Shown: piece by piece, positions 18,712-54,510 of the stretch
Position numbering within the stretch: the first letter of the stretch is position 1
Layout: each line of letters begins with the position of its first letter
NCBI GenBank assembly: GCA_902771735.1
Contig: CACXXO010000001.1
Span: 62,001-126,000, forward strand
Direction of reading: 5' to 3'
DNA: 64,000 nucleotides
Origin: an uncultured Bacteroidota bacterium
GTDB lineage: Bacteria; Bacteroidota; Bacteroidia; Bacteroidales; P3
Notes under the pieces: generated by a model
Databases searched by the model: none
What the model was told of the DNA's origin: nothing
What the model saw: only the letters and a program-made list of their open reading frames with translations
Translations under genes and position numbers: made by a program

Positions 18712-18824
18712 GCAACTGCCTGATACTAAGCACCAACTCCCTACCAACTCCCACCCATCTCCCTACCATCTCCGTACCATCTCCCACCACGGTAGGAGAT
18801 GATAGGTAGATGGTAGGGCGGTGG
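18712..18824 (+). repeat. 11-bp ladder repeat, copy A
   Basis: The edge sequence AACTGCCTGATACTAAG (18714-18730) is followed by five 7-bp boxes at 18734, 18745, 18756, 18767 and 18778 (CAACTCC twice, then CATCTCC three times), each exactly 11 bp apart. A 10-bp centre CACCACGGTA follows, then inverted boxes GGAGATG at 18795 and a degenerate one at 18806. The arms are partly complementary. It lies in the 293-bp divergent gap between the MATE gene and porU. The rest of that gap is AT-rich, with a 12-bp palindrome ATTGTATACAAT at 18852. Confidence 0.85.
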
Positions 18825-18915
18825 CACGTTTTTTGTAGCAATTATTATTATATTGTATACAATAAAAGTAAAAAAAGGGCGTTATTGGATAGTTATTTGA
18901 GTTAAGAGTTAATAG

Positions 18916-21900
18916 ATGACATACAAAAAAACATATTTCATAATGGCAGTGATGCTCGTGTGCTGGGGAGCGGCGGCGCAGAACCACTCGGTGCTGAGCA
19001 GCGGCCGATGGTGGAAACTGAGCGTGCAGGAGGAAGGTGTATACAGCATCACCACGCGCGACATAGCGGCGCTGCAAGGCGTCGCCGTCGACAGCCTGGG
19101 AGTCTACGGCCGCAGCGGCGCCATGCTGTCGACAAACAACAGCATCACCCCCACCACCGACATGCATCCACTGTGTATCGACGTTGTCGACCGTAACGGC
19201 GACGGCTTCTTCGGCAGCGACGACGAACTGCTTTTCTTCGGCGAGGGTGCCGAGGGGTGGAGCTACGACACGGAGCTGAAACGATGGGTCTACAGCCACC
19301 ATGCCTATGCCAACGAAAACTGCTACTACCTGACCATCAACGCCCCGCGTACCGTGCGCATCGCCACGGCTCCCACCATCGACGCCGACACCACGATGAT
19401 GGACCACACTGTGGTGGCCCACCATGAGAACGACCTGAACAACATCTATCGCACCGGACAGCTCTGGATGGGAGAGAAGCTGAGCACCGCCCAGTCGCAA
19501 CGCACCTTCGAGGTGAGGCTTCCCGGAACGGGCATCCGGGAGGTGAAATTGCGCTATGCCGTGGCCAGCACCTCGACCGCCAACGCCACCTTCCGCCTGC
19601 GCACTACCGGCTTCGACCGCACCGACTACACTTCCGACCAGTCGCCCTACTATTCCGCCAACGAAGTTCTCGGGACAAACGCCAACAGCTACTCCTTCAC
19701 ACTGAATTTCAATCCTTCTGACAATGCGGGCATGGGCTACCTCGACTATATTGAACTTTGCGCCCGCGGTGCCCTGACCTACAATGGAGGCCAGATGCTG
19801 GTGCGCAACGACCGCCACCTGAGGAGCACAGCGCGTTTTGTGATGACAGGCATCGGCTCGAACCGTGTGTGGGAAGTGACCTCCGTGGGCAACGAACGAG
19901 AGATGGCCGTGAACGCCAACGCATGGACCGACACCACTCCCGGGCCTCGGCGTTATGTGGCTTTCGACGAATATTCTTTCCTCTCACCCACCAACATCGA
20001 AGAAATTGACAACCAAGACCTCCATGGGGCCGACACAGCCGACCTGGTGGTGGTGACCCACAAGAATTTCCTCTCACAAGCACAACGTCTGGCCACACTG
20101 CACGAACTCTTCGACGGCATGAAGACACTGGTGGTCACCGACGAACAGGTGTACAACGAATACTCTTCGGGCAAGCAGGACCCCATGGCCATCCGCGCCC
20201 TGCTACGCGACCTCCGCGGAAACCACATCGACCGTCCGCCACTCTACCTGCTGCTTTTCGGCAAAGGCACATACGACAACCGCCACCTGCTCGACAGCCA
20301 GAGCGGCGCCACTTCGGGTGCCTCGGCTGCCACGGTGGTAACCTTCGAGACCCTCTACTCGTTCGACGAAGAGGGAGGCTCCTATGCCAGCGACGACATG
20401 ATGGGCTATCTGGCTCCCGCAAGCCACGGCTCGGCCTCGGAGTTCCTCGATGCCAGCGTGGGACGCCTGCCCGCCAAGGATACCGCCGAAGCCACCCTCT
20501 TGGTGGACAAGATTGAGCACTACATGACCCGCCGCGACCTCGTCGACGAAAGCACCCGTGGCGACTGGCGCAACTATGTGGCCCTGCTGGCCGACGATGC
20601 CGACCCCGGCCGCAGCGGCGACACCGCCTTCGCCCATTCCTCCGAGGTCATAGCCACAAGTCTCAAGAGCGCTATGCCCCACATCAACATCGACCGCTTC
20701 TACGCCGACTCCTACCATCAGGAAAGCGGTGCCATAGGTTCCTACTATCCCGACCTCAACAACGCCCTGCGTCAGCGCATCGAGTACGGCTGCCTGCTGC
20801 TCAACTACATAGGCCACGGCTCGACGGCCTACATAGGCACCGAACGCTACCTTGAGCCCGCTCAGATCACCGCTTTCAACAACGGCGACCGTCTCCCCTT
20901 CTTCGTGACGAGCACCTGTTCCTACGGCCGTTTCGACCTGGTCGACGAACAATGCGGCGCCGAGATATGTATACTGGCCCCGTCGGCGATGATAGGAGTC
21001 ATCAGCGCCTCCCGTCCCATCAGTCACATTGAGCGTTTCAACAAGGACGTGGTGCTCAATGCCCTCCAACCGGGGAACACCGTTGGCGACGCCCTGCGCA
21101 TGGCCAAGAACCGCACCCCGGTGTCCATGAGCATAGGACTGCTGGGCGACCCCGCGCTGCGCCTCAGCCAGCCACTCAACCGTGTGAAGGTAACCCATAT
21201 CAACGCCGAGCCCGTGAGCGACACTTCCGATGTGACCGCCGACGTGCTGTCGCGCGTCACCGTCCAGGGTGAGATTCAAGACACGGCAGGCAACCTCGTC
21301 GACGACTTCGACGGCACACTCTATCCCATCGTCTTCGACCGCGAGATGCGCGCCACCACCTTGGCCAACGACAATCCCGGCAGCCAACTCTCTTTCTGGC
21401 AGCAGAAAAACGTGCTCTACAAAGGCAGTCACCCTGTGGTGGGCGGCCGCTTCGAATACTCGTTCATCGTGCCGAAGGACGTACCCTATGAATATGCCTA
21501 TGCCAAACTGAGCCACTACGCCAAGTCGGACGCGACCGACCATGCAACAGGCAGTTTCCTGCGGCTGAAGCTGGGTGGCATGAGCGACGTGGAAATCGAG
21601 AACATGACTCCCCCGTCGGTCACCCTCTTCATTGGCGACACCAACTTCCGCGCGGGTGGCCTGACAGGCTCCTCGCCCACTCTGCTGGCTCACCTCTCCG
21701 ACTCGGCAGGCATCAATGTCGGCACCGGCTTGGGACATGATATCACGGCAGTAATTGACGACAATCCCAACAGTCTGTTAGTCCTCAACGACCTCTACCA
21801 GCAAGACATCAGCGACAGTCGCCGGGGCAGTGTGTCCTACACACTGAAGAATGTCGCTCCCGGCCGCCACACCATCACCGTGAAAGCATGGAACATCTAC

Positions 21901-22242
21901 GGCCTGTCGACAAGCGCAACCCTCCCCTTCGTGGTACGCGGCGAGGACACGCTGGCCTTCTCGGAACTGAGTTGCCTGCCCAATCCCGCCACAGAACAGG
22001 CCCGATTCGAACTGCGGGTGAACAGTCCCGCTTCCATAGCCAGCGCCGAGTTGCAAATCTACAACTCGCAAGGCAGCATGGTCTACAGCTTCACGCCCAC
22101 CGTTTCGTCCATGGGCTACATGGTGGGGCCTGTGGTGTGGAATGTCGGCACGGTTCCCCCGGGGCTCTATCTGGCCCGCATGGTGATGACCGACAGCGAA
22201 GGCGAGACTCACCAGGTGGTGACGAAATGTATTGTCCGTTGA
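18916..22242 (+). CDS. porU: Type IX secretion system sortase PorU (C25 cysteine peptidase)
   Basis: This is an 1108-residue protein with signal peptide MTYKKTYFIMAVMLVCWGAAAQ. The gingipain-like (C25) catalytic domain carries NYIGHGS with His634 and TSTCSYGRFD with Cys668, the expected His/Cys dyad. The last ~90 residues (from SCLPNPATEQARFEL near 1018, ending in CIVR) are a T9SS C-terminal Ig-like domain, which PorU keeps. PorU sits on the cell surface, removes the C-terminal signal from T9SS cargo and attaches it to anionic LPS. It is followed 67 bp later by porV, its partner. Start 18916 gives the signal peptide directly. Confidence 0.95.
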   Translation: MTYKKTYFIMAVMLVCWGAAAQNHSVLSSGRWWKLSVQEEGVYSITTRDIAALQGVAVDSLGVYGRSGAMLSTNNSITPTTDMHPLCIDVVDRNGDGFFGSDDELLFFGEGAEGWSYDTELKRWVYSHHAYANENCYYLTINAPRTVRIATAPTIDADTTMMDHTVVAHHENDLNNIYRTGQLWMGEKLSTAQSQRTFEVRLPGTGIREVKLRYAVASTSTANATFRLRTTGFDRTDYTSDQSPYYSANEVLGTNANSYSFTLNFNPSDNAGMGYLDYIELCARGALTYNGGQMLVRNDRHLRSTARFVMTGIGSNRVWEVTSVGNEREMAVNANAWTDTTPGPRRYVAFDEYSFLSPTNIEEIDNQDLHGADTADLVVVTHKNFLSQAQRLATLHELFDGMKTLVVTDEQVYNEYSSGKQDPMAIRALLRDLRGNHIDRPPLYLLLFGKGTYDNRHLLDSQSGATSGASAATVVTFETLYSFDEEGGSYASDDMMGYLAPASHGSASEFLDASVGRLPAKDTAEATLLVDKIEHYMTRRDLVDESTRGDWRNYVALLADDADPGRSGDTAFAHSSEVIATSLKSAMPHINIDRFYADSYHQESGAIGSYYPDLNNALRQRIEYGCLLLNYIGHGSTAYIGTERYLEPAQITAFNNGDRLPFFVTSTCSYGRFDLVDEQCGAEICILAPSAMIGVISASRPISHIERFNKDVVLNALQPGNTVGDALRMAKNRTPVSMSIGLLGDPALRLSQPLNRVKVTHINAEPVSDTSDVTADVLSRVTVQGEIQDTAGNLVDDFDGTLYPIVFDREMRATTLANDNPGSQLSFWQQKNVLYKGSHPVVGGRFEYSFIVPKDVPYEYAYAKLSHYAKSDATDHATGSFLRLKLGGMSDVEIENMTPPSVTLFIGDTNFRAGGLTGSSPTLLAHLSDSAGINVGTGLGHDITAVIDDNPNSLLVLNDLYQQDISDSRRGSVSYTLKNVAPGRHTITVKAWNIYGLSTSATLPFVVRGEDTLAFSELSCLPNPATEQARFELRVNSPASIASAELQIYNSQGSMVYSFTPTVSSMGYMVGPVVWNVGTVPPGLYLARMVMTDSEGETHQVVTKCIVR

Positions 22243-22309
22243 ACAATAAAAGAAACAAATCCTCGTTATAGTGAGGATAAAATTGAAAGAAACGATAGAT
22301 TTTGAATAG

Positions 22310-23491
22310 ATGAAAAAACTGACATTCCTGACTTTACTCGTAGTTATGGGCGGCACGCTAAGCGCACAGTATTCAGAGACCGGCCAATCGAAAAACTACA
22401 TCTCAACCGGTATGCCCATCATCATGATTGCCCCCGACGCCATCTCGAGTGCCTTGGGCGACGTGGGTGTCGCCACGACCCCCGATGCCTATTCGGCTCA
22501 CTGGAACAACGCCAAATTCGCCTTCATCGATGGCACCGCAGGTGCCTACACCACCTATACTCCTTGGCTGCGCAAATTGAAAGTGGGCGACATGAACCTC
22601 TTTTACATCGCCGGCTACTACCGCATCAACGACCGTAGCACCGCCGCCGCCAGCCTTACTTACTTCACCCTTGGCGACATCGACAACACCGATGTCGAAG
22701 GCAACAAGATAATGACACTCCACCCCAACGAGTTCGCCATTGATGCCACCTATGCCTTGAAACTCAACGACAACCTGTCGCTCGGTGCCACAGGGCGCTA
22801 TCTGCGTTCCGACCTCACCAACGGACAGACTGTGAGCGACGGAAGCGGCAACACCACGACGAAGGCTGCCAACTCGCTAGCCGCCGACATCGGACTCTAC
22901 TACCAGCAGAGCATCGACAAGACCCAGAATTTCGCCCTCGGTGCTTTCATCTCGAACCTCGGTGCCAAACTGTCGTACAGCGAAGACGACAACGACAAGG
23001 AGTTCCTGCCCGCCAATCTGCGTGTCGGTGGACGCTACACCAACAAGATTGACGATTACAACAAGATTTCCATCATGCTCGACCTCAATAAATTGTTGGT
23101 TCCCACCCCGCCGCTGCGCAACGACTCTACCGGAGCCTGGAGCAACTACAACAGCATGGGCGTCATCGAGGGCGCTTTCAAGTCGTTCACCGACGCCCCC
23201 GGCGGACTGACCGAGGAGCTGCAGGAAATCCAAATCTCGGCCGGTGCCGAATATTGGTATTCCGAGACCTTTGTGGCCCGCGCCGGCTACTTCTACGAGC
23301 ATGCCAACAAGGGCGGCCGCCAATACGCCACCGTCGGCGTCGGCATCCGCTACAACTACTTCTCCGGCGATTTCTCCTACCTCATCCCCACCACCACCAT
23401 CTCGACCAACTCGCTGGCCAACACCATCCGTGTATCCATCGGCCTCGACCTGAAGCCCACCACCAATGTCGGAGCAAACCAACCAGACTGA
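22310..23491 (+). CDS. porV: Type IX secretion outer membrane shuttle protein PorV (LptO)
   Basis: This 393-residue FadL-like barrel has signal peptide [20 protein letters not shown]. The family signature after the signal ([37 protein letters not shown], quoted here in pieces: [19 protein letters not shown]) is complete. PorV receives cargo from the SprA translocon through its C-terminal domain and delivers it to PorU. It is adjacent to porU in many Bacteroidetes, as here. The last codon overlaps ispF by 1 bp (TGATG). Confidence 0.95.
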
Positions 23492-23964
23492 TGAGAATAG
23501 GGACAGGATATGACGTACACCGGCTCGAGGAAGGGCTGGACTTATGGATGGGCGGCGTGAAGATAGCCCACACCCACGGGCTGTTGGGACATTCCGATGC
23601 CGATGTGCTGCTGCATGCCATCTGCGATGCCCTGCTGGGTGCCGCCGCCTTGGGCGACATCGGCAAACACTTTCCCGACACCGACCCTCAGTACAAAGGC
23701 ATTTCGAGCATTAAGCTCCTCGCTCATGTGGGACGGCTGCTGAAAGAACACGGCTACTCAGTGTGCAACATCGACAGCACCATCGTGGCCCAAAGGCCCA
23801 AGATGGCCGCGCATATCCCGCAAATGCGGCAGAACATTGCCGATGCATTGGGCATCGACGTTGACAGTGTCTCGGTGAAAGCCACCACCACCGAACACCT
23901 CGGCTTCGAGGGCCGAGAGGAGGGTATCTCGGCACAAGCCGTTGCATTGCTGAATGAAAAATAA
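23491..23964 (+). CDS. ispF: 2-C-methyl-D-erythritol 2,4-cyclodiphosphate synthase
   Basis: This is 157 residues from the ATG at 23491 ([12 protein letters not shown]). The zinc ligands of the family are present: Asp8 and His10 in GYDVH and His42 in [10 protein letters not shown]. The C-terminal substrate-binding block [17 protein letters not shown] is intact. It makes MEcPP in the MEP isoprenoid pathway. The start overlaps the porV stop by 1 bp, so it is translationally coupled; a longer upstream frame exists but is inside porV and is not used. Confidence 0.96.
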
Positions 23965-24268
23965 AGAATTTAAAAAATTGGAAGAGAACAAACCATATGT
24001 AAGCCCACAGGCCGACGACGAGGCCGCCGTGATGGAAGATAACGGCTGCCAGTTGGTGCTCTACAACGATGATGTCCACACCTTCGACTATGTCATCAAA
24101 GCCCTCGTCGACATCTGCCGCCACACTACCGAGCAGGCTGAGCAGTGTGCCATCCTTGTCCATTGCCATGGCAAATGCACCGTCAAACACGGTGCCCACT
24201 ACGAACTTCTCCCCATGCACACCGCACTGCTCAACAAACAGCTGACAACAGAAATCATAGAAAACTAA
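23954..24268 (+). CDS. clpS: ATP-dependent Clp protease adaptor ClpS
   Basis: This 104-residue protein matches the Bacteroidetes ClpS type: [18 protein letters not shown] (N-degron pocket strand with NDD), then [19 protein letters not shown] and a helical tail. ClpS binds proteins with destabilising N-terminal residues and hands them to ClpAP/ClpC. It overlaps the end of ispF by 11 bp, so it is the fourth member of the porU-porV-ispF-clpS transcript. Confidence 0.9.
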
Positions 24269-24276
24269 AAACAATT

Positions 24277-24756
24277 ATGACACCTACACTATTAATCATC
24301 CTACTCATTCTGGGCGTCGTGCTGCTGGCGCTCGAAGTGGTCGCCCTGCCGGGCGGCGTGGCCGGTTGCATTGGTGCCGGCATGATAGCCATTGGCGTAT
24401 GGCAAAGCTTCAAGGTCTTCGGCACCAATACAGGAACCATCATCCTGCTCTGCGCCGTAGTGTTGCTGGCCCTGATGCTGTGGTGGTTCATGAAAGCCAA
24501 GACATGGAAGCGATTCAGCCTCAACGAGGAGTCGGCCAGCAAGGTCAATCAGCTCGAGGAGAGCGTCAAGGTGGGCGCCCATGGCACCACCATCTCACGC
24601 CTCGCTCCCACGGGCAAAGCCCTCATCGACGGCAAGACTGTAGAGGTCCATGCCGTCAACAAATTCATCGACCCCGACCTCCCCATCGAGGTGGTGGCCA
24701 TCGAAGGCTACCGCATCGACGTGGTGGAGACCAACGACACTCGGTTTGAAAATTGA
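24277..24756 (+). CDS. NfeD-family membrane protein (short type)
   Basis: This is 159 residues from the ATG at 24277. Three hydrophobic segments (TLLIILLILGVVLLALEVVAL, then GGVAGCIGAGMIAIGVW, then IILLCAVVLLALMLWWF) are followed by a C-terminal OB-fold domain containing GTTISRLAPTGKALIDGKTVEV, typical of NfeD. Short NfeD proteins lacking the protease domain usually sit beside a flotillin, as here (40 bp before floA), and are thought to help organise membrane microdomains. The mechanism is not established. Confidence 0.9.
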   Translation: MTPTLLIILLILGVVLLALEVVALPGGVAGCIGAGMIAIGVWQSFKVFGTNTGTIILLCAVVLLALMLWWFMKAKTWKRFSLNEESASKVNQLEESVKVGAHGTTISRLAPTGKALIDGKTVEVHAVNKFIDPDLPIEVVAIEGYRIDVVETNDTRFEN

Positions 24757-26469: not shown

Positions 26470-26596
26470 CGGCACCGTACCTTCTCCGTATCTTCTCCGT
26501 ATCATGTCCGACCCTGGTCGGACATGGGTCGGAGTTGGGTCGGAGTTGAGTCGGACTTGATACGGAGTTGGTACTAAGTATCAAGCAGTTAGGAAT
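26470..26596 (-). repeat. 11-bp ladder repeat, copy C
   Basis: Read on the minus strand, an edge ATTCCTAACTGCTTGATACT is followed by five boxes (plus-strand starts 26564, 26553, 26542, 26531, 26520), each 11 bp apart. The 10-bp centre is GACCCTGGTC on the plus strand. Inverted boxes follow at 26503, 26492 and 26481, again 11 bp apart. The linkers from the edge (gtat, gact, gacc, gacc) are the same and in the same order as in copy B, so the two are close relatives. It lies between two convergent terminators. Confidence 0.85.
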
Positions 26597-35814: not shown

Positions 35815-35944
35815 ATTCCTAACTGCCTGATACTAAGAGTCAACTCCGTATCAAGTCCGACTCAACTCCGACCCATCTCCGACCCAACTCCGACCGCGGT
35901 CGGAGATGATACGGTGAGGGTACGGAGGGAGGACGGAGAAGGGA
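35815..35944 (+). repeat. 11-bp ladder repeat, copy B
   Basis: The edge ATTCCTAACTGCCTGATACT (35815-35834, then AAG) is followed by boxes at 35841, 35852, 35863, 35874 and 35885, all 11 bp apart. The perfect 10-bp palindrome GACCGCGGTC follows, then inverted boxes at 35902, 35913, 35924 and 35935, still on the 11-bp grid although the last three are degenerate. It ends 11 bp before the -33 box of the thioredoxin-like gene. This and the two promoters fill the 375-bp gap between guaB and that gene. Confidence 0.88.
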
Positions 35945-42414: not shown

Positions 42415-44948
42415 CGACAGCGAATCCGGTTACTGAAACTGAAAAGACGCCATCGGTTGTATTCACCGGGGCAGTAGAGGTGCATGCCTCGCAGGCCCTT
42501 CTCGCGGAGGTCTAGGTAGCGCCACACCGACGGGACAAACTGCTGGCGGTCGGGATAGACGGTCTGCGGGGCCTGGCGCAGACGTTGCTCATCATAGTAG
42601 CGCGTCCATTCCAAGAAATGCCGTTCCATATAGAAATACAGGACGTTGAACTGTTTCATATAGTCCTTTGCTCGGGGCCCAACAGCGAAACCTACCACGA
42701 CATTCGACGGCTCGCCGTGCCATACCGACGCCACACTGCACATCACAATTCCCTCCACCTCTCCCAACGGGTATTCCAACACACGCTCGTCGCCATTCAG
42801 AATCACTTCGCGGCAGTCGGTCAGCTGCCCGTTCACCTCCAGCATCACCACTGCCCGCACCTCCTTCTGCCACGAGGCTATATGAATTCGCAAGGTGTCG
42901 CCGACGGCGACCATCCCTTGGTTCTCCTTCCACGCATCGATATTTGAGCCACTTATCGGATACCGTCCCTGATAGACGGTCATATGGCTCGACTTGTCCC
43001 CTGCGCTGAGGGTGGCGCGATAGACGCCGTCGGGCGCCAATGGTGGCAGGGCAAAGGCGTGATTCTTAGCCGACTCGAAATGTCGGTGCCAAATACCTAC
43101 CTGCTCGGCCACCGGCCAGTCGTCGGTGTGGTTGACGTAGCGACTGTAGGCAAAGCCGGGATAGCGCCGCTCGAACTCAGCAGAATCGATGGTTTGCTCC
43201 GCCTGGCGCGAGAGCATGGTGTGGTTCAGCCGATGCACTGCGGGAGGCTGTAGGCGTTCCACCTTCAGCTCGGCATCCACCGCCGGAGTATACCTTGTCT
43301 CGCCGTCCCAATGGAAATAGCCAAATTCAAACCAGATGCTGTCGCACGTGAGGCTGTCGATGTAAAGGCCGTGCTCCTTTTCGAAGTATCCTTTCAGTTC
43401 CTCCTCACTCGGAGAATCATCCTCATCCTCTTCCTCCTCCCACTCATCATCCACGCTATTGGTGTTCAACACATAATTTTCCAAATCCAACGGATAGGCA
43501 CGCATGCCGCGGGCCAGATTCAATCCCTTGTAGGGGGCATAGAGCCGATAGTCGTCACGAGGGGAATCATCGGGCACATCGAAAGCGAAGCATCCATGCT
43601 GGTCGGTGCGCGTGGAGGCCACCGTCTCTCCTTTCAACTGCAAATACACCTGAAACCCTTGCACCGGCTTGCCCGTGCGGCTGTCCATCACCACGCCACG
43701 ACCCACCTGGTCGGCCATCAGGTAGCGATCGCAGAAAAGCACCTCCATCGCATCATAGCTGCGGAAAAGGCTGTCCGCCGAGGCCCACAGCAGGTAGCGC
43801 CCCGTGGGCATGGGCGGCAGGTAGACGTAAGCCTCGTGGTAGTCCAGATCGGGATGTTCCGTCACCTCCATCGTCCATTCCTTCAACACCTTCGGGTGTT
43901 CCCGTTCCAAGGTATCCAACGGTGTCATCCGCAGGTAGACCTTCTTCGTCATGCGGTGCCACAGGGTGCCCAAAGCCCACTCGTCGGCAGCATAGGGCAC
44001 GATGTAGGGACGGTGGTCGTCTTTCAGGCGCACATCACCCGTCAGCACCCGCCCACGCAACACCAAGGCATGCTGCGCCGCGACACTCCCATTCCAGAAC
44101 ATCCGGATGGTGTCGCACCATCCGATAATATCCCGATAGCGATAGCCTGCGCCATACTTCTCGGCATCCTCGAGGGCTTCCTTGGCCATGCGCAAATAGT
44201 ATTCCGCCAACAGCACCGACGTGTCGCCTCGATGGCTGTGGAGGTGCTGCTCATAGTTTTGTGTACTCCACTCTTCGCGTTCGGCAAACTGCAGGTCGAG
44301 CCAGAGGCGCCCGTTGGGCACCCGGTCATAAGTGCGATACAAAGAGTCCTTGGCCAGAGGGTCGTGATTGGAGGCGAGGTCGAAGAGCCTGCGCTGCTCC
44401 GCCGTAGGCAGCACCCCCAGGCGCACCATCGCCACGCTGTCCTTGGAGCCGAAGATGTCGCGTCCGCTGCGCAGCACCAAAGGTTCCACCGTAACATTGG
44501 ACGAGCGCCGCAACGGCTTGCCCATCAGCGCACAGCACACCTCGGGGTCGCCCGTGTCGTCGCGCATATAGCGGGCGTCGGCATAAGAGGCCACATGGAA
44601 CGGCAACGTATCGCTCCCGTTGCCGGAGGACCATACCGCCTGCAGCAGGCCCATCAGCTGGAGCCATCCGGTGTTGCCCGTGCGACGGCCGACGGCGGAG
44701 AGCGTATAGGTGCTGTCGCCCCGCTGGGCGGCGCCGTAGTAGAGGCAGCGGTAGTGGTCGACGGTCAGCGAGGTATCGCATCGCTCGAAGCGTTTCACCA
44801 AGCTCTTGTAGCGGTACTCGCCGAACCAGCGGCGCGTCTCCTTCTGTATGCGCTCGTAGTTGGGCGGCACCGGCGCGGGGTTCTCCTGCGCCTGCACGCC
44901 CGGCAGCAACACCAGTACGAAGAGCACTATCAGCGGTATCTTATTCAT
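42411..44948 (-). CDS. Secreted protein with DUF4919-like N-terminus and alpha-2-macroglobulin-like modules
   Basis: This is 845 residues from the ATG at 44948 (MNKIPLIVLFVLVLLPGVQAQ signal). Residues about 25-200 (NYERIQKETRRWFGEYRYKSLVKRF, DTSLTVDHYRCLYYGAA) look like DUF4919. From about 375 the pattern changes to macroglobulin-like beta modules: YVYLPPMPTGRYLLWASAD, then VVMDSRTGKPVQGFQVYLQL (carboxypeptidase-regulatory-like) and DTLRIHIASWQKEVRAVVML. A very acidic stretch (EWEEEEDEDDSPSEEE) interrupts it. No thioester domain is present and the protein is far shorter than full macroglobulins. It overlaps the upstream paralog by 8 bp. Role unknown; protease inhibition is not supported. Confidence 0.65.
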   Translation of the reverse strand: MNKIPLIVLFVLVLLPGVQAQENPAPVPPNYERIQKETRRWFGEYRYKSLVKRFERCDTSLTVDHYRCLYYGAAQRGDSTYTLSAVGRRTGNTGWLQLMGLLQAVWSSGNGSDTLPFHVASYADARYMRDDTGDPEVCCALMGKPLRRSSNVTVEPLVLRSGRDIFGSKDSVAMVRLGVLPTAEQRRLFDLASNHDPLAKDSLYRTYDRVPNGRLWLDLQFAEREEWSTQNYEQHLHSHRGDTSVLLAEYYLRMAKEALEDAEKYGAGYRYRDIIGWCDTIRMFWNGSVAAQHALVLRGRVLTGDVRLKDDHRPYIVPYAADEWALGTLWHRMTKKVYLRMTPLDTLEREHPKVLKEWTMEVTEHPDLDYHEAYVYLPPMPTGRYLLWASADSLFRSYDAMEVLFCDRYLMADQVGRGVVMDSRTGKPVQGFQVYLQLKGETVASTRTDQHGCFAFDVPDDSPRDDYRLYAPYKGLNLARGMRAYPLDLENYVLNTNSVDDEWEEEEDEDDSPSEEELKGYFEKEHGLYIDSLTCDSIWFEFGYFHWDGETRYTPAVDAELKVERLQPPAVHRLNHTMLSRQAEQTIDSAEFERRYPGFAYSRYVNHTDDWPVAEQVGIWHRHFESAKNHAFALPPLAPDGVYRATLSAGDKSSHMTVYQGRYPISGSNIDAWKENQGMVAVGDTLRIHIASWQKEVRAVVMLEVNGQLTDCREVILNGDERVLEYPLGEVEGIVMCSVASVWHGEPSNVVVGFAVGPRAKDYMKQFNVLYFYMERHFLEWTRYYDEQRLRQAPQTVYPDRQQFVPSVWRYLDLREKGLRGMHLYCPGEYNRWRLFSFSNRIRCR

Positions 44949-46382: not shown

Positions 46383-46493
46383 ACCGTACCAACTCCGAAT
46401 CATCTCCCACCGTGGTAGGAGTTGATATGGAGTTGGTAGGGAGTTGGGTAGGAGTTGGTACGGAGTTGGTGTTAAGAGTCAACTTGTTATGGA
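46383..46493 (-). repeat. 11-bp ladder repeat, copy D
   Basis: Read on the minus strand: a decayed edge (46470-46493), then five boxes (plus-strand GGAGTTG at 46462, 46451, 46440, 46429, 46418), all 11 bp apart, the centre CACCGTGGTA, and two inverted boxes at 46401 and 46390. It lies between the end of the glucan synthase gene and the promoter of the macroglobulin-like pair. Confidence 0.85.
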
Positions 46494-46516: not shown

Positions 46517-49500
46517 TCAGAAATCGAGATGGTGGGTTTGGCCGTCGTCGAGGAGTGTGATTGAAGGGTGAGGGGCAGGGTTGCCGGGGTGGGGAGAGTA
46601 GTGGAGGATGTAGAGTGAAGATCGGTAGCGGAGGCGGAGGGAGAAGGAGGGCCAGTCGGAGGGGATGTTTGGGGAGAGTGAGAGGGTGTCGCCTGAGAGA
46701 TGGAGGCCGAGGATGTTTTCGATGGCGGTTTTGTAGGCCCAGGAGGCGGAGCCTGTGTACCAGGTCCAGCCGCCGCGGCCAGGGTGCTGGGGATTGGAGT
46801 AGATGTCGGCGGCGATGCAGTAGGGTTCGACCTTATACTTGAGGACGTCGGCGAGGGAGGAGGTGCGGTGGACGGGGTTGATGATGGAGTAGAGGTAGTA
46901 GGCTTCGTCGTTGTATCCCTCGTTGAGTTTAGCCATGATGTACCACATGGCGCCGTGGGTGTACTGGCCGCCGTTTTCGCGGACACCGACGGGGTAGTTG
47001 GCGATGTAGCCTGGGGAGGGGACGGAGGAGTGGAAGGGCGGGGAGAGGAGCTGGATGATTTCGTGAGGACGGTTGACGAGACGGTTGTCGGTTTCGTGGA
47101 AGATGGATTGTTTCTGGGCGGGGGTGGCGACGTTGGTGAGGATGGCCCAAGCCTGGCAGATGAGGTCGATCTGGCATTCGGTGTTGTTGCGGGAGCCGAT
47201 GGGGGCGCCGTTGTCGAAGAAGGCGCGGAGGAACCAGTTGCCGTCCCAGGCGTTGTGCTGGAGTGCGTCGACTATGCGCTGGCGGGCGGAGGCGAGGGAT
47301 GAGCAGTAGGCGAGGTCGGCGCCGGGGGCGAGTTGGGTGAGCTGTTCCATCTTGGGGAGGAGGTCGGCGAGGAAGAAGGCGACCCAGACGGATTCGCCCT
47401 TGCCGGCAGTGCCAACGGAGGAGAGGCCGTCGTTCCAGTCGCCGCAGCCGATGAGGGGGAGGCCATGGGTTCCGAGGCGCGAGAGAGCGCGGTCGACGGC
47501 GCGGCGGAGGTGTTCGTAGAGGGTTGCCTTCTCAGTGCTTTGGTGGTAGTTTACGCCGCGTTCGGGTACGCCGGGGGGAAGGGGCTCGGAGTAGCAGAAG
47601 GGCACTTGTTCGGAGAGGATGGAGGAGTCGCGGGTGACGGAGATGTACTGGTGGGTGACGAAGAGGAGCCAGAGGTAGTCGTCGGAGAAGGTGGTGCGGG
47701 CGCCGAAGCCTGTGTGCCACCAGTGGAGGACATCGCCTTCGGGGAACTGGTGTGCGGCGTGGAGGAGGATTTGGCGGCGAGCGTAGGCGGGGTCGGAGTA
47801 GAGGAGCGACATGACATCCTGGAGCTGGTCGCGGAAGCCTGTGGCGCCGCCGACCTGGTAGAAGCCAGCGCGGGCGAAGAGGCGGGAGGCATAGACTTGG
47901 TAGAGATACCAGCGGTTGACCATGTGGTTGAAGGCGCGGTCGGGGGTTTCGACCTGGATGGTGGAGAGTTTGCGGTCCCAGTAGTCGACGACGCGTTTGA
48001 ATTCGGTGTTGATGAGGTCGAGAGTGGGGAGGTTAGGTTTAGGTTTTCGGTTTAGGTTTTCGGTGGAATCGGAGGAGGAGACGGCGATGGTGAAGGCGAC
48101 CTCCTTGACGGCGCCGGGGGCGAGAGAGAGGGAGAAACCGAGTCGCTTGCGGTTGGGGTAGTCGAGGGAGACGCGTGAGAGGGGCTCGGTGGCGGAGAGG
48201 TGGAGAATCTGGTTGCGGTAGACTGGGTGGTAGACGTTGCGAACGAGGAGGGAGTTGGAGTCGGGGTCGAAGGAGGAGTGGAGGTAGCGAGCGGTGTGTT
48301 CTTCGGAGAGGCCGAGGACGAGCTTGTAGACCATGTCGAGCGTGACGTCCTGAGAGGAGGAGGTGGTGTTTTCGAGCTTGATTTGGTAGTACTTCTCCAT
48401 GCGGTCGAGAGCGACGAAGAGGCGGATAGCGACACGGAGGTCGTCGTATTCGGCGTCGAAGGCGGACCAGCCAGCAGAATGGCGAGCGGTTGCCGGGAGG
48501 AAGCGGCAGTTGTTGATGAGGAGCATTTCGGAGGCTGGGTCGCGGACCATGTCGTTGGACCAAGCGGTCAGTTTGAACTGCTGAGCGTTGTGGGCAAAGG
48601 TGAAGCCGGCCATGGTGGCGGAGACGACGAAGCCGAAGGAGGGACCCTCGCCGTTTTCGCCGCCGGCATTGGCGATGACGTTGACCCAGGGCATGGGGGT
48701 GTTGGTGTTGGTGATGACGTAGTCGCGCCCATCGTTGTCAAAGCCGCCGTATTGGTTATAGAATTCGAGGTTGCTCCAGACACGGAATTCGCTCTTGGGT
48801 TTGAGCAGGGGGTACTCGATTTTGTCCTGGTAGTGCTGGTTGGCGACCTCGAGTCGACGCAACTGTTCGGTGATGGTGATGCCCTCCTTGGTGGAGAAGG
48901 AGAGGCGGGCCACGGTGTGGAGGAGCACACGTTCGGCCTCGGTGACATCAGAGCCGTCGAGGATGAAGACGGAGCCGGAGGGGCTGTGGGTTGTCCAGAG
49001 GTGCTCGGTGTCGGCCATCTGACGGATGAAGTGGTGGAGGCCCTGATGATCGGCACTTTCCCGTGGGACGTCGTTTATGAAGACCAAATCGAGGGAGAGA
49101 CCATGTGTCTTGTAGTATTCGAAAGCCCGGAGCATTTCCTTGGCGAAGCCGGAACGTTCGAGGCTGTCGACTTCCATGAGGATGATGGGGAGGTCGCCAG
49201 AGATGGAGAAGCGCCAGAGGGCGGACTGGGAGAGGGTGTTGCGAGCCAAGAGGTCGTTGCGGCTGTTGCCGAGGGTGGCGGTCTGCGCCATATATTTTGA
49301 GATGGCGTTGTAGAGACGCATCTGGCTACCCTTGAGGAGGGAGAGACTGTTGCGCATGTTGTTGAAGACGGAAGCGGTGCGGAAGGCGTGCTCAACATCG
49401 AGGGAGGACTGGTATTGTCGGGAGAGTTGGAGAAGTTGTTCCTTGGATTTGGCGAAGCCGGTGAGTATGAAGGCTTCGGTGCTTTTTCCTTGGGCGATGT

Positions 49501-52500
49501 GGAGACGGCGACGCATGGAGAAGACGGGGTCAAGAGTGGTGCCGACGGTGCCGGAAAGGATGCGGCGGTTTTCGATGATGTCGGCGTGGCGAAGGGAGTT
49601 GCCGCGACCGAGGAAATTGAGGCGCGAGGTTTCGTATTCGACGGGAGAGGAGGGAGCGGGGGTGCCGGATTGGTGGGTGTCGGATTGCGGCTCTGCCACC
49701 CAAAGTTTGTGGATGAGGTAGTGGCGCGAGTCGCCGGACCCTGGACGGGAGAAGAGGAGTGCCTGATGGTCGTTGTCGTACTCGGAAGCAATCTTCATGG
49801 CATTGAAGACGCGGTGGTTTTCGTCTTCAGCGGGTGGAGCGAGGACGACTTCGCCATAGGAAGTGATTTCGAGGTCGACGTCGGAGTCGCTGTTGTTGGT
49901 GAAAGAGATGCGGCGGAGTTCGGCGCTGCGATCCTTGAGGACGGTGACTTCTGTCTTGGTCTCGATGCCCTCGTCGACGCGGAGGTAGGATATCTTGTCG
50001 GAAGCGAAAGAGACATGATAGCTTTCAGGCATAACGTCGAGAGGTGCATAGGTGTTGCACCAGAGGCGGTCGTCGGCGAGGTTGCGGATGTAGAGGAAGG
50101 TGCCGTAGTGGTCGGAGGAGATTTTGCGATAGCGGTTGAGGAGGATGTTGTGGTAGCGGGAGAAGCCGGAACCGCGGTCGTTGAGGAGGACGGTGTACTG
50201 GCCGTTGGAGATGACGCCGATTTCGGGCACGTTGGCAATGGTGTCGAAGTCGCGGGCGTCGCTTTCGGTTTGCACTTTGGAGTATTGGTAGCGTTTGTAC
50301 TGGGTGACCTTTAGATCGATGTAGGGTTTGACCTGTGCTTTTTCCTTGAGGAGGGTTTCCATGGAGCGCATGGCTGGCTCGTGCATGAAGTAGCGCTGGA
50401 GGCACCCCAAGGGGGAAGCGGAGGTGGCGGTGAGGTAGTTGGCGAGGGCGGCGAGAATCATGCCCTGATGGTGGGCATAGTGGGCTTTCACACAGACGTG
50501 GTCTTCCTCGTCGTAGGACTCGAAGAAGCCAAAGTGGTCATACATATCCAGCTTCTTGAAGTTCTGGATATTGTTGTAGACGGCGCGATCGTCGACGGAG
50601 ATGGTCATGAGGGAGCTGTAGGGAGAAACGACGATGCGGTCGGGGGTGGTGTTCTGGAACTTGAGATAGGGGACACCGAAGGCGTGGTATTTGTAGTTTT
50701 GGGCGTCGTCGAGCTCGTTGTAGGCCGTTTCGGAGATGCCCCACGGCGAGGGATAGAAAGCCCGTTGGGCACGGATGGCGAAGGAGTAGGTCTCGTCCAT
50801 GAGGGTGTGCTTGTAGGTGGGGAGGAAAATGAGGGGCATGAAGTACTCGAAGAGGGTACCGTACCAGGAAGCCACCCCTTTGTAGCCGCCGTACTGGACG
50901 AGGGTTTTGTCCAGGCAGAACCAGTGTTTGTAGGGGGCATCGCCCTGTGCAATGGTGAGGAAGGAGGTGAGACGGGCTTCGGAAGCGAAGTTGTTGTAAT
51001 GGTAGGGGAGCAGGGTGTAGTTCTGCGTATCGTAGCCTATGGAGAAAACATCGAGCTGGGGGTTGTAGAGCTTGGTGAAGTCGGTCTGCGCGATGAGGCG
51101 GTCGACCTTGGCGAGCAATGTAGAGACGTGGGCCTGCCCCGTCTCCAAGAGGGTGTCCAAGAAGCCCTTGACGACGTAAAGGCAGGCGACGAAGTTGCCC
51201 GAGTCGCAGGTCGAGATGAAGAAGTTGGGCAGGGGGTTGAGCGTTTCTATACCGTACCAGTTGTAGAGGTGGCCGTTCCATTTCTCAAGGCGTTCGACGG
51301 TGTCTACAATGTGTCCTATTCTCACCACTGCCTCTTCCTTGGAGATGAAATCCAGTTCGGCAGCCGATACGACGGCAGTCATCGAATAGCCTATGTTTGT
51401 CGGGCTGGTCTTGTAGTCGGCCTTCTTCTCGCGGTTCAGCTGGTAGTTGTCCGGTATCAGCCAGTTGTTTTCCTCGGAGATGAGGCTGTCGAAGAAGTGC
51501 CACGTGTCCTTGGCCAGCTGGCGTATCTCCCCGGTCTCCTTTTCGTTGAGTGATTTCTTGTTCTGAGGGAACTTCCTGCCCAACCGGTACATCAACACAG
51601 GTGCCAACACCCAAACCAAGCAGGTGAGGCCTGCGGCAATGAAAGCCATGACGTCGCCAGTGTCGAGGATGCTACGATTGTCAAACATCCTGATTGCCAG
51701 AGCGGCCAATGCTATTGCACAGACATAGTTGAACCAGAATTTCCTCAGGTAGTCGCCCAGAGTTCCTTTGGTGCTCTTGGCGGCCTCGTCGCTGGTAATC
51801 CATGCCAGAAGGTCGCGATGCGAGACCCACATTCTCCAACAGGCCCTCAACGCCGCGTCGCTATACATCCAGGCTTCCTTGGGCAAGAGGGCGAACTGGA
51901 CTATGGAGCGGTAGATGATGACCTTAAAGCCGCGCATGAGCGTCATGTAATATTTGTAGCGCTTGCCGAAAGAGGGCACGGTGGTTATCTGACCCAAGAT
52001 GAAGAAAACGATGGGACTGGCCACCGCCACCAGTGCCACCACGACATACCATGCGGGGCTGAAGTCTGTCGTCGTCACGGCTCCATAAACATAGCCGGCA
52101 AAAATCATCAGCACCACGGCCAGACTCAGCATCGAGCGGCGCAGGTTGTCGAATATCTTCCAGCGGCCTATGGTGTTCACCTGGTTCTTCACCCGCTCGC
52201 CCTTCTCGTTTTTCACATGCGGCGTCAGCCACGAGATGATCTGCCAGTCGCCGCGGGTCCAGCGATGGTGGCGCTTGGCATCGTCAATATAGTTGCTGGG
52301 GTTGTCGTCGAAAAGCTCCACATCGTTGATGAGACCGCAGCGGATATGGCAACCCTCGAGGAGGTCGTGACTGAGGATGAGGTTCTCGGGGAAGGTGCCC
52401 TTGAGAACCTGCTGGAAAACGCGGAGATCGTAAATACCCTTTCCGCAGAAGGAACCTTCGTTGAAAATGTCCTGATAGAGCTCGAAACTGGCCGTGGTGT

Positions 52501-54223
52501 AGACGTCGAGGCCTCCCAAGCCGGCAAAGAGTTGGGCATAGCGGCTCTTGTTGGTCACCTCCACGTCGACATTCACGCGAGGCTGCATGATGCCGTAGCC
52601 CCTCTCGACACGTTTCCCGTCGGGGCTGAGGTGGGCACGGTTCAAGGGATGCGCCATAGCCCCGATGAGTTTCTGCGCCGAATAGAGCACAAGTTCCGTA
52701 TCGGTGTCGAGGGTGATGACGAACTGTATGGGGCAACCATCATGCCCGTCAACCCCTTTCAACCAATCTGAAATGGTCTCCACACGGAACCGCTTTCCTT
52801 TATCGGCCTCGCTCGTCGCGCCCAGCAGCAGGTCGTTGAAGTGGAGAATGGCACCGCGTTTGCGCTCATGTCCCAACCAGGTTCTCTCACCCTCGCTCCA
52901 CGCCCGGCGGCGGTAGACAAAGTTGAAAATCGTCGCGCCGTACTTTTCGTTAAGTTCCTTGACTTTTGCCAATCCAGCGTCGACAACTTCCTGATCCCAC
53001 GGTGCATCCTCCTCTTTGTAGCTCGCCGCATCGCCAATGAGGGTGTAATACAGGTTCTGGCCATTGGTGCCCTTAAAACCCTCACGACCCTCACCACGGT
53101 TGATATTGCTCAGGTAGTAGACTTCCAACTGTTCGAGCAACTCCACGGTCTTCTCCTTGTTCTTGAGGATGGTGGGCATGATGACCATGGTTGCATACTC
53201 CTTGGGGATGAGCCCCTCCTTGAACCTGAGCTTGAAAGTACCTACGGGCTTGTGCAGGCGGTAGAGCAGCTGGTTGAAGAGGTCTATGACCACCTGGCTC
53301 ATCGGCACAGCCACGAGCAGCGTCATCAGCGCCGTCAGCCAACCACCAACGCCCATGGCCCATATGGAAAAACCCGCGGCAAGCAACAGGGAAGCCGTCA
53401 CAACAATAGCCACATAGCCATGTGCCCTTGCATTCCAGCCCTTGGGTGGGAACAGCAACCATCCCACATGCTGTCCGCTTTCGTCGGCCTTTGCCACCAG
53501 ATCCTTCACATAGTCATATTCACTCACCTTCCGTCCATTCGGTCCCTTCGCCTTCCGGCTCTCTCTCACCACCTTGGCACGGTAGTCCTCCTTGGTCTTG
53601 TCCTGCATCTGGTCGTACATTGCAGCCTTCTCCGCCTTCAACGCCTTCTCGGAGAAGCTGACGCCGTCAATCAGTTCGGCCAACGGCAGTTTGGTTAACT
53701 TCTTCAGTGAGTTGAAGATATTCATCATCATCAGGTTCTGCCTTGCAGCCTCGTTGAGATGCTCCATCTCGGCCATATTCCTGTCGGTCGGTTTGTAGCG
53801 ATAGGCGCCCTCGCGCTCAAGCTGGCGACAGAGGGAGGCAAGCTCGCCTATAAGGACAGCCTTGAGGAGCGGCAGGAGAGCCCATACCTCGGGATAGCTG
53901 AGATAGTCCTTGGTGGAAACCTGGACCCCGCGAAGGTAGCGGAAGAGGAGCCCCTTGTCGACAGCATAATGGCACCTGTCCAGGTAGCCGTGGAGCAGAT
54001 TCCAAAGCAGCTCCACCCTCTCCACCTTCCACTTCCCGCTCTCCACACCCTTCAACTCGCCCTTCATCACTTTCTCCTGCTCGCTGATCATATAGTAGTT
54101 GTCGAGCACCCACTCATTCGTGCTACCCACCAAACGCTCGCCCGATGTCTCCTCCACCAGCAACATGTAGTATCGCGTCACCTCTTTCACACTCTCCCTG
54201 AAAAACTTGTAAGTATTCTCCAT
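46517..54223 (-). CDS. Cyclic beta-1,2-glucan synthase-like protein (GT84, glucoamylase-like, GH94)
   Basis: This is 2568 residues, NdvB/Cgs-like. Order: helical N-terminus; membrane hairpin about 268-318; GT84 glycosyltransferase with TLDTDT at 504-509, HDLLEG near 619, and the RHHRWTRGDWQIISW block at 651-665 (acceptor motif of the QxxRW kind); more membrane segments to about 880; a glucoamylase-like domain (PF10091 type) from about 903; and a C-terminal GH94 phosphorylase-like module with GDWNDG near 2261-2266. In proteobacteria this enzyme makes periplasmic cyclic beta-1,2-glucan from UDP-glucose. All modules look intact. Strand composition changes sharply near 51.25 kb. It has its own promoter. 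Confidence 0.9.
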   Translation of the reverse strand: MENTYKFFRESVKEVTRYYMLLVEETSGERLVGSTNEWVLDNYYMISEQEKVMKGELKGVESGKWKVERVELLWNLLHGYLDRCHYAVDKGLLFRYLRGVQVSTKDYLSYPEVWALLPLLKAVLIGELASLCRQLEREGAYRYKPTDRNMAEMEHLNEAARQNLMMMNIFNSLKKLTKLPLAELIDGVSFSEKALKAEKAAMYDQMQDKTKEDYRAKVVRESRKAKGPNGRKVSEYDYVKDLVAKADESGQHVGWLLFPPKGWNARAHGYVAIVVTASLLLAAGFSIWAMGVGGWLTALMTLLVAVPMSQVVIDLFNQLLYRLHKPVGTFKLRFKEGLIPKEYATMVIMPTILKNKEKTVELLEQLEVYYLSNINRGEGREGFKGTNGQNLYYTLIGDAASYKEEDAPWDQEVVDAGLAKVKELNEKYGATIFNFVYRRRAWSEGERTWLGHERKRGAILHFNDLLLGATSEADKGKRFRVETISDWLKGVDGHDGCPIQFVITLDTDTELVLYSAQKLIGAMAHPLNRAHLSPDGKRVERGYGIMQPRVNVDVEVTNKSRYAQLFAGLGGLDVYTTASFELYQDIFNEGSFCGKGIYDLRVFQQVLKGTFPENLILSHDLLEGCHIRCGLINDVELFDDNPSNYIDDAKRHHRWTRGDWQIISWLTPHVKNEKGERVKNQVNTIGRWKIFDNLRRSMLSLAVVLMIFAGYVYGAVTTTDFSPAWYVVVALVAVASPIVFFILGQITTVPSFGKRYKYYMTLMRGFKVIIYRSIVQFALLPKEAWMYSDAALRACWRMWVSHRDLLAWITSDEAAKSTKGTLGDYLRKFWFNYVCAIALAALAIRMFDNRSILDTGDVMAFIAAGLTCLVWVLAPVLMYRLGRKFPQNKKSLNEKETGEIRQLAKDTWHFFDSLISEENNWLIPDNYQLNREKKADYKTSPTNIGYSMTAVVSAAELDFISKEEAVVRIGHIVDTVERLEKWNGHLYNWYGIETLNPLPNFFISTCDSGNFVACLYVVKGFLDTLLETGQAHVSTLLAKVDRLIAQTDFTKLYNPQLDVFSIGYDTQNYTLLPYHYNNFASEARLTSFLTIAQGDAPYKHWFCLDKTLVQYGGYKGVASWYGTLFEYFMPLIFLPTYKHTLMDETYSFAIRAQRAFYPSPWGISETAYNELDDAQNYKYHAFGVPYLKFQNTTPDRIVVSPYSSLMTISVDDRAVYNNIQNFKKLDMYDHFGFFESYDEEDHVCVKAHYAHHQGMILAALANYLTATSASPLGCLQRYFMHEPAMRSMETLLKEKAQVKPYIDLKVTQYKRYQYSKVQTESDARDFDTIANVPEIGVISNGQYTVLLNDRGSGFSRYHNILLNRYRKISSDHYGTFLYIRNLADDRLWCNTYAPLDVMPESYHVSFASDKISYLRVDEGIETKTEVTVLKDRSAELRRISFTNNSDSDVDLEITSYGEVVLAPPAEDENHRVFNAMKIASEYDNDHQALLFSRPGSGDSRHYLIHKLWVAEPQSDTHQSGTPAPSSPVEYETSRLNFLGRGNSLRHADIIENRRILSGTVGTTLDPVFSMRRRLHIAQGKSTEAFILTGFAKSKEQLLQLSRQYQSSLDVEHAFRTASVFNNMRNSLSLLKGSQMRLYNAISKYMAQTATLGNSRNDLLARNTLSQSALWRFSISGDLPIILMEVDSLERSGFAKEMLRAFEYYKTHGLSLDLVFINDVPRESADHQGLHHFIRQMADTEHLWTTHSPSGSVFILDGSDVTEAERVLLHTVARLSFSTKEGITITEQLRRLEVANQHYQDKIEYPLLKPKSEFRVWSNLEFYNQYGGFDNDGRDYVITNTNTPMPWVNVIANAGGENGEGPSFGFVVSATMAGFTFAHNAQQFKLTAWSNDMVRDPASEMLLINNCRFLPATARHSAGWSAFDAEYDDLRVAIRLFVALDRMEKYYQIKLENTTSSSQDVTLDMVYKLVLGLSEEHTARYLHSSFDPDSNSLLVRNVYHPVYRNQILHLSATEPLSRVSLDYPNRKRLGFSLSLAPGAVKEVAFTIAVSSSDSTENLNRKPKPNLPTLDLINTEFKRVVDYWDRKLSTIQVETPDRAFNHMVNRWYLYQVYASRLFARAGFYQVGGATGFRDQLQDVMSLLYSDPAYARRQILLHAAHQFPEGDVLHWWHTGFGARTTFSDDYLWLLFVTHQYISVTRDSSILSEQVPFCYSEPLPPGVPERGVNYHQSTEKATLYEHLRRAVDRALSRLGTHGLPLIGCGDWNDGLSSVGTAGKGESVWVAFFLADLLPKMEQLTQLAPGADLAYCSSLASARQRIVDALQHNAWDGNWFLRAFFDNGAPIGSRNNTECQIDLICQAWAILTNVATPAQKQSIFHETDNRLVNRPHEIIQLLSPPFHSSVPSPGYIANYPVGVRENGGQYTHGAMWYIMAKLNEGYNDEAYYLYSIINPVHRTSSLADVLKYKVEPYCIAADIYSNPQHPGRGGWTWYTGSASWAYKTAIENILGLHLSGDTLSLSPNIPSDWPSFSLRLRYRSSLYILHYSPHPGNPAPHPSITLLDDGQTHHLDF

Positions 54224-54277
54224 CAGTATCTCTGTTTCTATTATTTATATAGTATTACAATTCATAAAAAGAAACTG

Positions 54278-54309
54278 CAAAAATACAAAACTTTTCCCAC
54301 ATAGCCAAA
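54278..54309 (-). promoter_or_regulatory. Promoter for the glucan synthase gene
   Basis: On the minus strand TTTG (54306-54309), a 20-bp spacer, then TATTTTTG (54278-54285), 54 bp before the start codon. Confidence 0.8.
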
Positions 54310-54394
54310 TTTTTTTCCCAAACAGACTCCCTACCCCTACCATCCACAGGCATGGATAGATGCGCTTGCGCGCAGATAAGCCTGCGGCCGCTGC

Positions 54395-54510
54395 CAACCG
54401 CCTCCCTCCTCCCACCCATCTCCCTACCAACTCCCACCATGGTAGGAGTTGGTAGGGAGATGGGTGGGAGTTGGTAGGGAGATGATACGGAGTATGAAGC
54501 ACTTAGAGAG
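54395..54510 (-). repeat. 11-bp ladder repeat, copy E
   Basis: Read on the minus strand: a decayed edge with CTAAG, then five boxes (plus-strand starts 54489, 54478, 54467, 54456, 54445), the centre CACCATGGTA, and inverted boxes at 54428 and 54417, with degenerate ones further out. The inner arms are complementary over about 30 bp with one mismatch, so this copy can form a long hairpin. It lies in the 353-bp gap between the DMT transporter and the glucan synthase gene, upstream of the latter's promoter. The rest of the gap is AT-rich with a small GC-rich inverted repeat near 54360-54390. Confidence 0.88.

Follow-up and report, generated by a model that had tools for sequence, protein, structure and literature searches.

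What keeps a family of short intergenic elements on an exact 11-bp ladder, and what could such elements be for? The question is raised by a stretch of 64,000 nucleotides (the window) from an uncultured Bacteroidota bacterium, which corresponds to positions 62001-126000 of contig C1 in a 2.29-Mb draft genome of 37 contigs that is 95.9% complete (G000, hereafter the source genome). The window has Bacteroidota-like genes, among them those for PorV and a C25 peptidase of the PorU type, and the host is probably a gut-dwelling member of the Bacteroidales. A sequence-only reading had noted five intergenic sites that share one architecture, with boxes recurring at 11-bp steps and inverting about a central dyad, and had proposed either selection for geometry, as in a binding array for an oligomerising protein, or copying of a fixed element. 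All five sites are present where they had been placed (Table 1). We find that they belong to a large and evenly spaced family, and we suggest, with a probability of about one half, that its members are cis-acting sites of chromosome organisation, at which a phased protein assembly coats or wraps the DNA.

The anatomy is regular. Boxes of type CAW(C/G)TCC stand at exact 11-bp steps and invert about a 10-bp centre, and the inverted boxes stay on the common grid, as had been described. The dyad sits on a unit boundary, and because of this coincidence a single 11-bp grid runs through the whole element. An element is about 120 bp long; from the dyad, one arm usually extends for seven 11-bp units and the opposite, inverted arm for about four. 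Its asymmetry, which corrects the earlier description, is also seen in a conserved TAACTGCCTGATACTTAG-like end motif that is found at one end, on the 11-bp grid and usually seven units from the dyad. The consensus (57 of 58 copies, one element with a mis-set automatic centre being excluded here and from the analysis of neighbour likeness) thus reads as end motif, 11-bp units like NTACCAACTCC, the dyad CTCCtACCa/cGGTaGGAG and then inverted units.

The distance from end motif to dyad could be located in 31 of 71 elements from the source genome and its sister species G021, and in 29 of these it is 59, 70 or 81 bp. The source genome contributes 23 measurable copies (70 bp in 15, 81 in 5, 59 in 1 and off-grid in 2) and G021 eight (70 bp in seven, 59 bp in one). 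As these distances fall into 11-bp classes, arm length therefore varies mostly by whole units. An off-grid placement gives the better fit for 30 of the 638 unit slots; the outermost left slot accounts for 12 of these, and two odd copies for 8. We had also considered the scarcity of indels as proof of geometry, but this measure is aligner-dependent and was dropped in favor of the distance from end motif to dyad. A conserved palindromic leader, CTGA-N-TCAG, across species was likewise abandoned, the cases being too few. Positions 5, 10, 16, 19, 22 and 27 from the centre match their mirror positions more often than in shuffles (p <0.01, with shuffles that ignore relatedness); mirrored pairing exceeds off-register pairing at position 10 for the W base, and little or not at all for the variable linker base. 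The orientation of 32 copies shows no clear difference with respect to GC skew.

A profile made from 28 seeds and run over 712,768 bases of the source genome (31% of the genome) detected 58 copies, 20 on contig C1, 6 on C2, 2 on C3, 6 on C4, 12 on C6 and 12 on C7. All score above 70 bits except two weak ones (26 and 37 bits), and extrapolation gives about 190 copies per genome. The spacing of the boxes is fixed at 11 bp and not variable, and with 58 copies in 713 kb the five gaps of the window are not the sole occurrences. A pattern of three boxes with at most two mismatches gives 174 + 188 matches (362) in the source genome, compared to 0 for a reversed control. With at most one mismatch it is found in 10 of 41 genomes, namely 9 of 25 from the genus (source genome included) and 1 of 16 from other families of the order (G029). 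The exact pattern occurs in 2 of 395 genomes of the phylum, again including the source genome; the species collection has at least 110 stretches with it, and among the 80 matches listed the largest group is uncultured Bacteroidales, many of them from ruminants.

Genes were called by a simple home-made dicodon caller, and by this measure none of the 32 copies from the first 384 kb has its centre in a gene. A copy is present in 15 of 34 divergent gaps, 13 of 233 co-directional gaps and 4 of 36 convergent gaps, and divergent gaps are thus favoured. As a sequence-blind alternative to the profile, arrays were detected by their lag of 11 without regard to the letters of the units, in nine stretches from seven species. 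Here the occupied gaps are 41 of 121 divergent, 49 of 971 co-directional and 12 of 122 convergent; for gaps of at least 50 bp after subtraction of the element they are 41 of 110, 49 of 382 and 12 of 78 (both sets are hand sums). Three array centres fall inside genes called by the dicodon caller (2 of 9 in G009 and 1 of 9 in G011). On contig C1, at a threshold of 40/66, sequence-blind detection gives 18 arrays at lag 11 and 4 at its harmonic 22, compared to 0-1 at lags 7-10, 12-15, 17 and 20.

The copies are spread evenly along the chromosome. The 51 gaps between neighbouring copies on C1, C2, C4, C6 and C7 (C3, with two elements, was excluded from the pooled test) have a mean of 11.75 kb, a minimum of 4.4 kb, a maximum of 27.1 kb and a coefficient of variation (CV) of 0.40. 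Random gaps matched for type give a CV of 0.90, and a value as low as that observed in 0 of 5000 trials. A 4.4-kb exclusion rule alone, which is not type-matched, gives 0.60 and reaches the observed value in 0 of 1500 pooled trials; by contig, p is 0.029 for C1 alone and 0.013 for C2, C4, C6 and C7 together. The evenness on C1 is stable across four definitions of an eligible gap. In G021, where 13 copies leave 12 gaps in 128 kb of one contig, the profile gives a CV of 0.26 versus 0.86 (0 of 5000; p 0.026 under the exclusion null). Lag-11 detection in the source genome gives CVs of 0.48 on C1 (p 0.002), 0.35 on C6 (p 0.002) and 0.38 on C7 (0 of 4000). In G022, which has other units, 21 arrays give a CV of 0.58 (p 0.017), a weaker evenness than in G021; G014 gives 0.52 (p 0.048), and in G009 the shortest gap is long (p 0.007-0.045). 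G003, with four arrays, was too small for this test. As a control, arrays of period 7 in G022 (contig C13, 276 kb, 29 gaps occupied) are random, with a CV of 1.03 and p 0.65. These period-7 tandem repeats, found on this contig and in other congeners, are a separate class, intergenic and mostly in co-directional gaps.

Period 11 is also found in the genus with different letters. In 19 genomes of the genus (about 1.42 Mb of sequence) we find 52 arrays at lag 11 compared to 3, 1 and 0 at lags 10, 12 and 13, and 7 and 12 at lags 8 and 9; lag 7 (44 arrays) and its multiple 14 (21 arrays) represent the separate heptamer class. Four short contigs, from G005, G008, G018 and G019, were saturated at all lags, behaved as masked and are uninformative. 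The units of the congeners include CGGACCATCNC and GGATATGCTTA in G009, TAGATGACTCC in G001, GTAGGTCTATG in G014, TTCTTCAGTAG and AACGATACTTC in G022, and others. Upstream of the gene encoding IMPDH, the source genome and G021 have the element in common, whereas G002, G003, G006, G007, G009, G011, G014, G016 and G022 carry a period-11 sequence with different units (some identified by inspection) and several other congeners have no period-11 sequence there. The second flanking gene of this locus was checked for G002, G014, G021 and G022, and looks different in G011.

Among gaps between adjacent gene pairs that are reciprocal best matches outside G021, arrays are present in 4 of 12 where the source genome has an element, compared to 0 of 232 where it has none (p 3e-6). 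With a comparison class of gaps of at least 100 bp, in which shorter gaps were retained where the source genome has an element, the latter becomes 0 of 45 (p 0.001). Arrays of other letters are found at a common place in two orthologous gaps. The source genome itself has six period-11 arrays of other sequence, and their distances from the main family exceed those of most intergenic positions (0.03-0.26 of positions are as distant or more so, p ~1e-4; two of the six are 1.2 kb apart, and counting them once gives p ~1e-3 by hand estimate). They include one in the 23.8-kb hole of the main family on C1 and two in the 27.1-kb hole on C7. Seven arrays of lags 9, 10 and 13 in the same genome lie 0.2-11.1 kb from the main family, with no such trend by eye. 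The geometry outlives the sequence, the genus retaining period 11 while the letters of the units change. We consider the proposed selection for geometry well supported, in that arm changes are mostly of 11 bp and congeners hold the period with other unit sequences.

Related arrays were observed farther away. In G029, from another family of the order, contigs C168 and C116 (L097, L040) carry near-perfect hairpins with four CAACTCCAGTA-like units per arm and an AT-rich loop. A Dysgonamonadaceae contig (L143, JAISYU010000032.1, 4272-4399) has a long 11-bp direct array that mixes units like CAACTCCGTTG and CAAGTCCGAAC, with no obvious dyad. The cultured Butyricimonas synergistica DSM 23225 (L121, L132, L136) has about ten loci with AT-rich CAWCTCCYATT arrays in its 4.8-Mb genome; we do not regard these as a comparable lattice, as there are only about ten loci and the three inspected in sequence are without obvious dyad. 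Outgroups at the level of the order gave 0 arrays in the 50 kb that were readable from 5 genomes, which is too little sequence for a conclusion.

The comparison with G021 shows how the copies are passed on. Five of its 13 elements are located between neighbouring orthologues of neighbouring source-genome genes, and four of those source-genome gaps hold an element; four further elements map to source-genome intervals, each no longer than a few kb, in which an element is present, and the remaining four could not be placed cleanly (a degenerate element at 43,533 was excluded from the orthologue table). At the PorU gap the called G021 gene start overruns the element, and so the orthologous-gap comparison misses it there. 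In the eight aligned pairs the orientation with respect to the neighbouring genes is kept in 8 of 8, and the mean identity is 0.70 versus 0.59 for unpaired copies; synteny supports the pair at C1 108412 less strongly. G follows CTCC in 35% of units in the source genome versus 3% in G021, which is a genome-wide shift, and neighbouring copies in the source genome are more alike than shuffled ones (0.703 versus 0.664, 0 of 5000). From the pairs in place, the shift of the linker base and the likeness of neighbours we therefore conclude that the copies are passed on in place and also become homogenised. The idea of copying of a fixed element is in this way upheld in part, namely in that copies within a genome share their sequence, neighbours most of all, and that the two sister species differ genome-wide in the linker base. 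In G011, an element and about 100 bp of its flank occur twice on C15 in near-identical form, near 229 and near 9254, 9 kb apart, which could be a recent duplication or an effect of assembly.

Homogenisation is what would be expected from the main rival explanation, a selfish non-autonomous repeat, similar to REPINs or to miniature inverted-repeat transposable elements (MITEs), which multiplies by means of a transposase or gene conversion, whose variants sweep through genomes and which excludes copies locally. The homogeneity within a genome, the likeness of neighbours and the change in the linker base all agree with such a repeat, as does presence and absence at the panB gap (copy 2), where G021 has the element and the gaps of G014 and G002 are about 50 bp long and without it. 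The elements also resemble REPIN/REP sequences in being dispersed, high-copy intergenic inverted repeats with a species-specific sequence, but differ by their multi-unit 11-bp arms, their even spacing and the lack of a RAYT found in the genome, to judge from what PMC3116915 describes of REPINs; next-neighbour distances are there given as random above 200 bp. The Y1/RAYT transposase PF01797 has 0 matches in the source genome (a 95.9% complete draft), whereas 18 of 26 genomes searched have one, and we rejected a REPIN/RAYT system on this ground together with the even, non-random spacing (CV 0.40 versus 0.90). For a selfish repeat in general, one must further reconcile that only 2 of 58 copies are weak, that the evenness exceeds the expectation from an exclusion zone, that position and orientation are kept to G021, and that arrays of other sequence sit away from the main family. 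We thus regard a selfish repeat as possible but doubtful.

Several observations weigh against a chromosome-organising site, and they are collected here. The shortest gaps in G022 and G009 fall between different families (p 0.13 and 0.07), a hint that exclusion may be family-specific, as a selfish repeat would have it. The evenness is not seen everywhere: the lag-11 arrays of G001 are not even (5 arrays, CV 1.14, p 0.91), for G009 the CV falls short of significance (p 0.10-0.16; lag-11 0.12, profile 0.16), and by lag-11 detection so do G011 (p 0.087, versus 0.013 by profile) and G021 (p 0.13). Gaps of at least 150 bp total 26 divergent, 36 co-directional and 8 convergent, by which count the divergent preference is weaker, although an element lengthens its own gap, and on C7 0 of 10 divergent gaps are occupied. 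Three of the four cross-species array matches come from the single IMPDH gap; 8 of 12 orthologous gaps are without an array, and positions therefore turn over. The pair at C6 3887 has an identity of 0.55 and is no more alike than unpaired copies, and two of the six other-sequence arrays are near contig ends, with the next element unseen. The density of indels (0.77 in elements versus 1.22 per 100 in flanks) is not clearly lower, and is equal per mismatch. Finally, the GC phase with respect to the dyad, taken from strong-dyad arrays only (26 from the five genomes with qualifying dyads), agrees weakly and with low amplitude (R 0.80, p ~0.04), which weakens the version with gyrase or wrapping.

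In that version the elements would be strong sites for DNA gyrase, with arms that wrap around the C-terminal domains of GyrA and a dyad that is the putative gate segment. By analogy, the closest anatomical parallel would be the gyrase motif of E. coli, which PMC6379681 presents as 130 bp with a central 36 bp, two 47-bp arms, a GC period of 10.75 bp and a readout that is possibly indirect, through shape. BIME-2 sequences, which are strong gyrase sites, are intergenic repeats proposed to aid genome organisation in the accounts of PMC6379681 and PMC12393610. The likeness lies in size (about 130 bp there, about 120 bp here) and in a core or dyad with helically phased arms, as the Topo-Seq motif is depicted in PMC6379681, and fixed geometry with free sequence could fit a readout of shape. 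On the other hand, the elements have a period of 11.0 and not 10.75 bp, a weak GC oscillation at that period, asymmetric and unequal arms, an even spacing of about 12 kb, and a base conservation within a genome that is far stricter than that of a degenerate motif. The divergent preference adds a further difficulty. Under the twin-domain model positive supercoils do not collect in divergent gaps, the very gaps favoured here. We consider gyrase sites unlikely.

A sequence-specific regulator, of the OmpR/PhoB type with 7+4 bp direct repeats or of the ribbon-helix-helix ParR type, could alternatively form arrays on promoters or on a partition site. In its 7+4 layout the element is similar to the Pho box and to the 11-bp iterons of parC, and the preference for divergent gaps would suit promoters; 4 of 32 copies, however, are in convergent gaps without a promoter, the inspected flanking genes share no function, and about 190 evenly spaced sites (by extrapolation) are unlike a regulon or a centromere. 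Among matS/MatP, parC/ParR and the Pho box there are dispersed chromosome-organising sites and 11-bp iterons bound by an oligomerising protein, but in sequence, number and spacing the elements differ from these as we know them, and a putative regulator array seems improbable to us. That the elements are a mutational by-product, left between genes by the slippage of tandem units, or that they are an RNA hairpin or terminator, is very improbable: the inner arms are complementary and mirrored positions match, but period 11 is enriched over neighbouring lags (the heptamer class aside), the half-length is mostly fixed and no Rfam match is found at the elements. The hairpin was rejected because arms in many copies pair poorly beyond the inner 12 bp and because 15 of the 32 copies, being in divergent gaps, have no gene end to terminate.

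The sequence-only reading knew of no named family with this form, and our searches agree. At the gathering threshold, Rfam gives only one tRNA in the window, and at a permissive threshold no match overlaps copies 2 and 3. With the low-complexity filter on, BLAST gave no plasmid match for copy 1 and no phage match for copy 5, and 23 matches to the pattern on viral contigs show no such dyad by eye; a phage, plasmid or viral origin was set aside, no matching element being found in those searches. In the open-licence PMC literature, to go by titles, abstracts and some passages, we did not find such elements described. BrickBuilt, a MITE of Porphyromonas gingivalis (PMC4596501), is reported with 23-nt units, a length of 84-991 nt, 19 copies and terminal inverted repeats. 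It is likewise an intergenic tandem-repeat element in Bacteroidales with distinct ends ('leader' and 'tail'), but as PMC4596501 portrays it, it differs from the elements here, which have 11-bp units, a near-fixed length, a dyad and about 190 copies (extrapolated). The TAACTGA heptamer repeats are similarly abundant, short and intergenic; PMC4679880 reports them as 7-mer direct repeats, mostly near start codons in its main species and also in some Bacteroidetes; the elements here are at lag 11 and not at lag 7. For every known repeat family that was tested, the elements fail the test, and we found no known kind that combines fixed geometry, free sequence and even spacing; the function proposed for them is putative.

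The window also contains genes of interest next to the elements (Table 1). Genes for type IX secretion follow immediately downstream of copy 1, and copies 4 and 5 are found on either side of a gene for a 2568-aa protein that resembles cyclic beta-1,2-glucan synthase.

Table 1. Elements of the window and genes beside them, with positions in the window.
Feature	Position	Strand	Anatomy or domains	Location
Copy 1	18713..18824	+	End motif left, 7 units, dyad centre 18789/18790, ~3 right units	Divergent gap, MatE gene / PorU-like (Peptidase_C25) gene; orthologous G021 gap also has element
Copy 2	26471..26596	-	End motif right, dyad centre 26514/26515	Convergent gap, DUF308 / panB
Copy 3	35815..35943	+	End motif left, dyad centre 35896/35897	Divergent gap, guaB (IMPDH) / AhpC-TSA gene
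Copy 4	46383..46493	-	End motif right, dyad centre 46412/46413	Co-directional gap, 3' end of 2568-aa GH94 gene
Copy 5	54394..54510	-	End motif right, dyad centre 54439/54440	Co-directional, opposite side of GH94 gene, adjoins EamA gene
Peptidase C25 (PorU-type) gene, then porV	18916..23491	+		
2568-aa GH94 gene	46517..54223	-	Glucoamylase-like, GH94 supersandwich and GH94 catalytic domains	

We favor the reading of the elements as chromosome-organising sites. A binding array for an oligomerising protein, as was first proposed, would fit what we see of them. The element would offer a dyad core and arms with contact points every 11.0 bp, presenting one helix face through the dyad; a protein assembly could land on it, follow that face across the dyad and coat or wrap the DNA. 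Selection would retain one site per about 10-12 kb in the gaps between operons, and the sites could plausibly pin or border topological domains. Candidate readers would be DNA gyrase or a nucleoid protein that oligomerises along DNA. We infer all three parts of this proposal: that a protein reads the element, that it does so chiefly through helical phase or the shape of the DNA, and that the function is domain organisation.

Supercoiling domains in bacteria are about 10 kb in size, and their borders are usually thought to be stochastic and unmarked. More tentatively, we speculate that wrapping or coating sites every 10-12 kb might form a lattice that is kept by helical geometry alone, with letters that change by genome-wide sweeps, and that such a lattice may act as a sequence-independent ruler of supercoiling domains, by a logic comparable to that of positioned nucleosomes. 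If this is true, an evenly spaced, heritable and geometry-defined element would be a physical marker of supercoiling domains and would make domain organisation testable. It would also mean that selection acts on the shape of DNA while its sequence turns over, and comparative genomics could then find such sites by their period and not by their letters.

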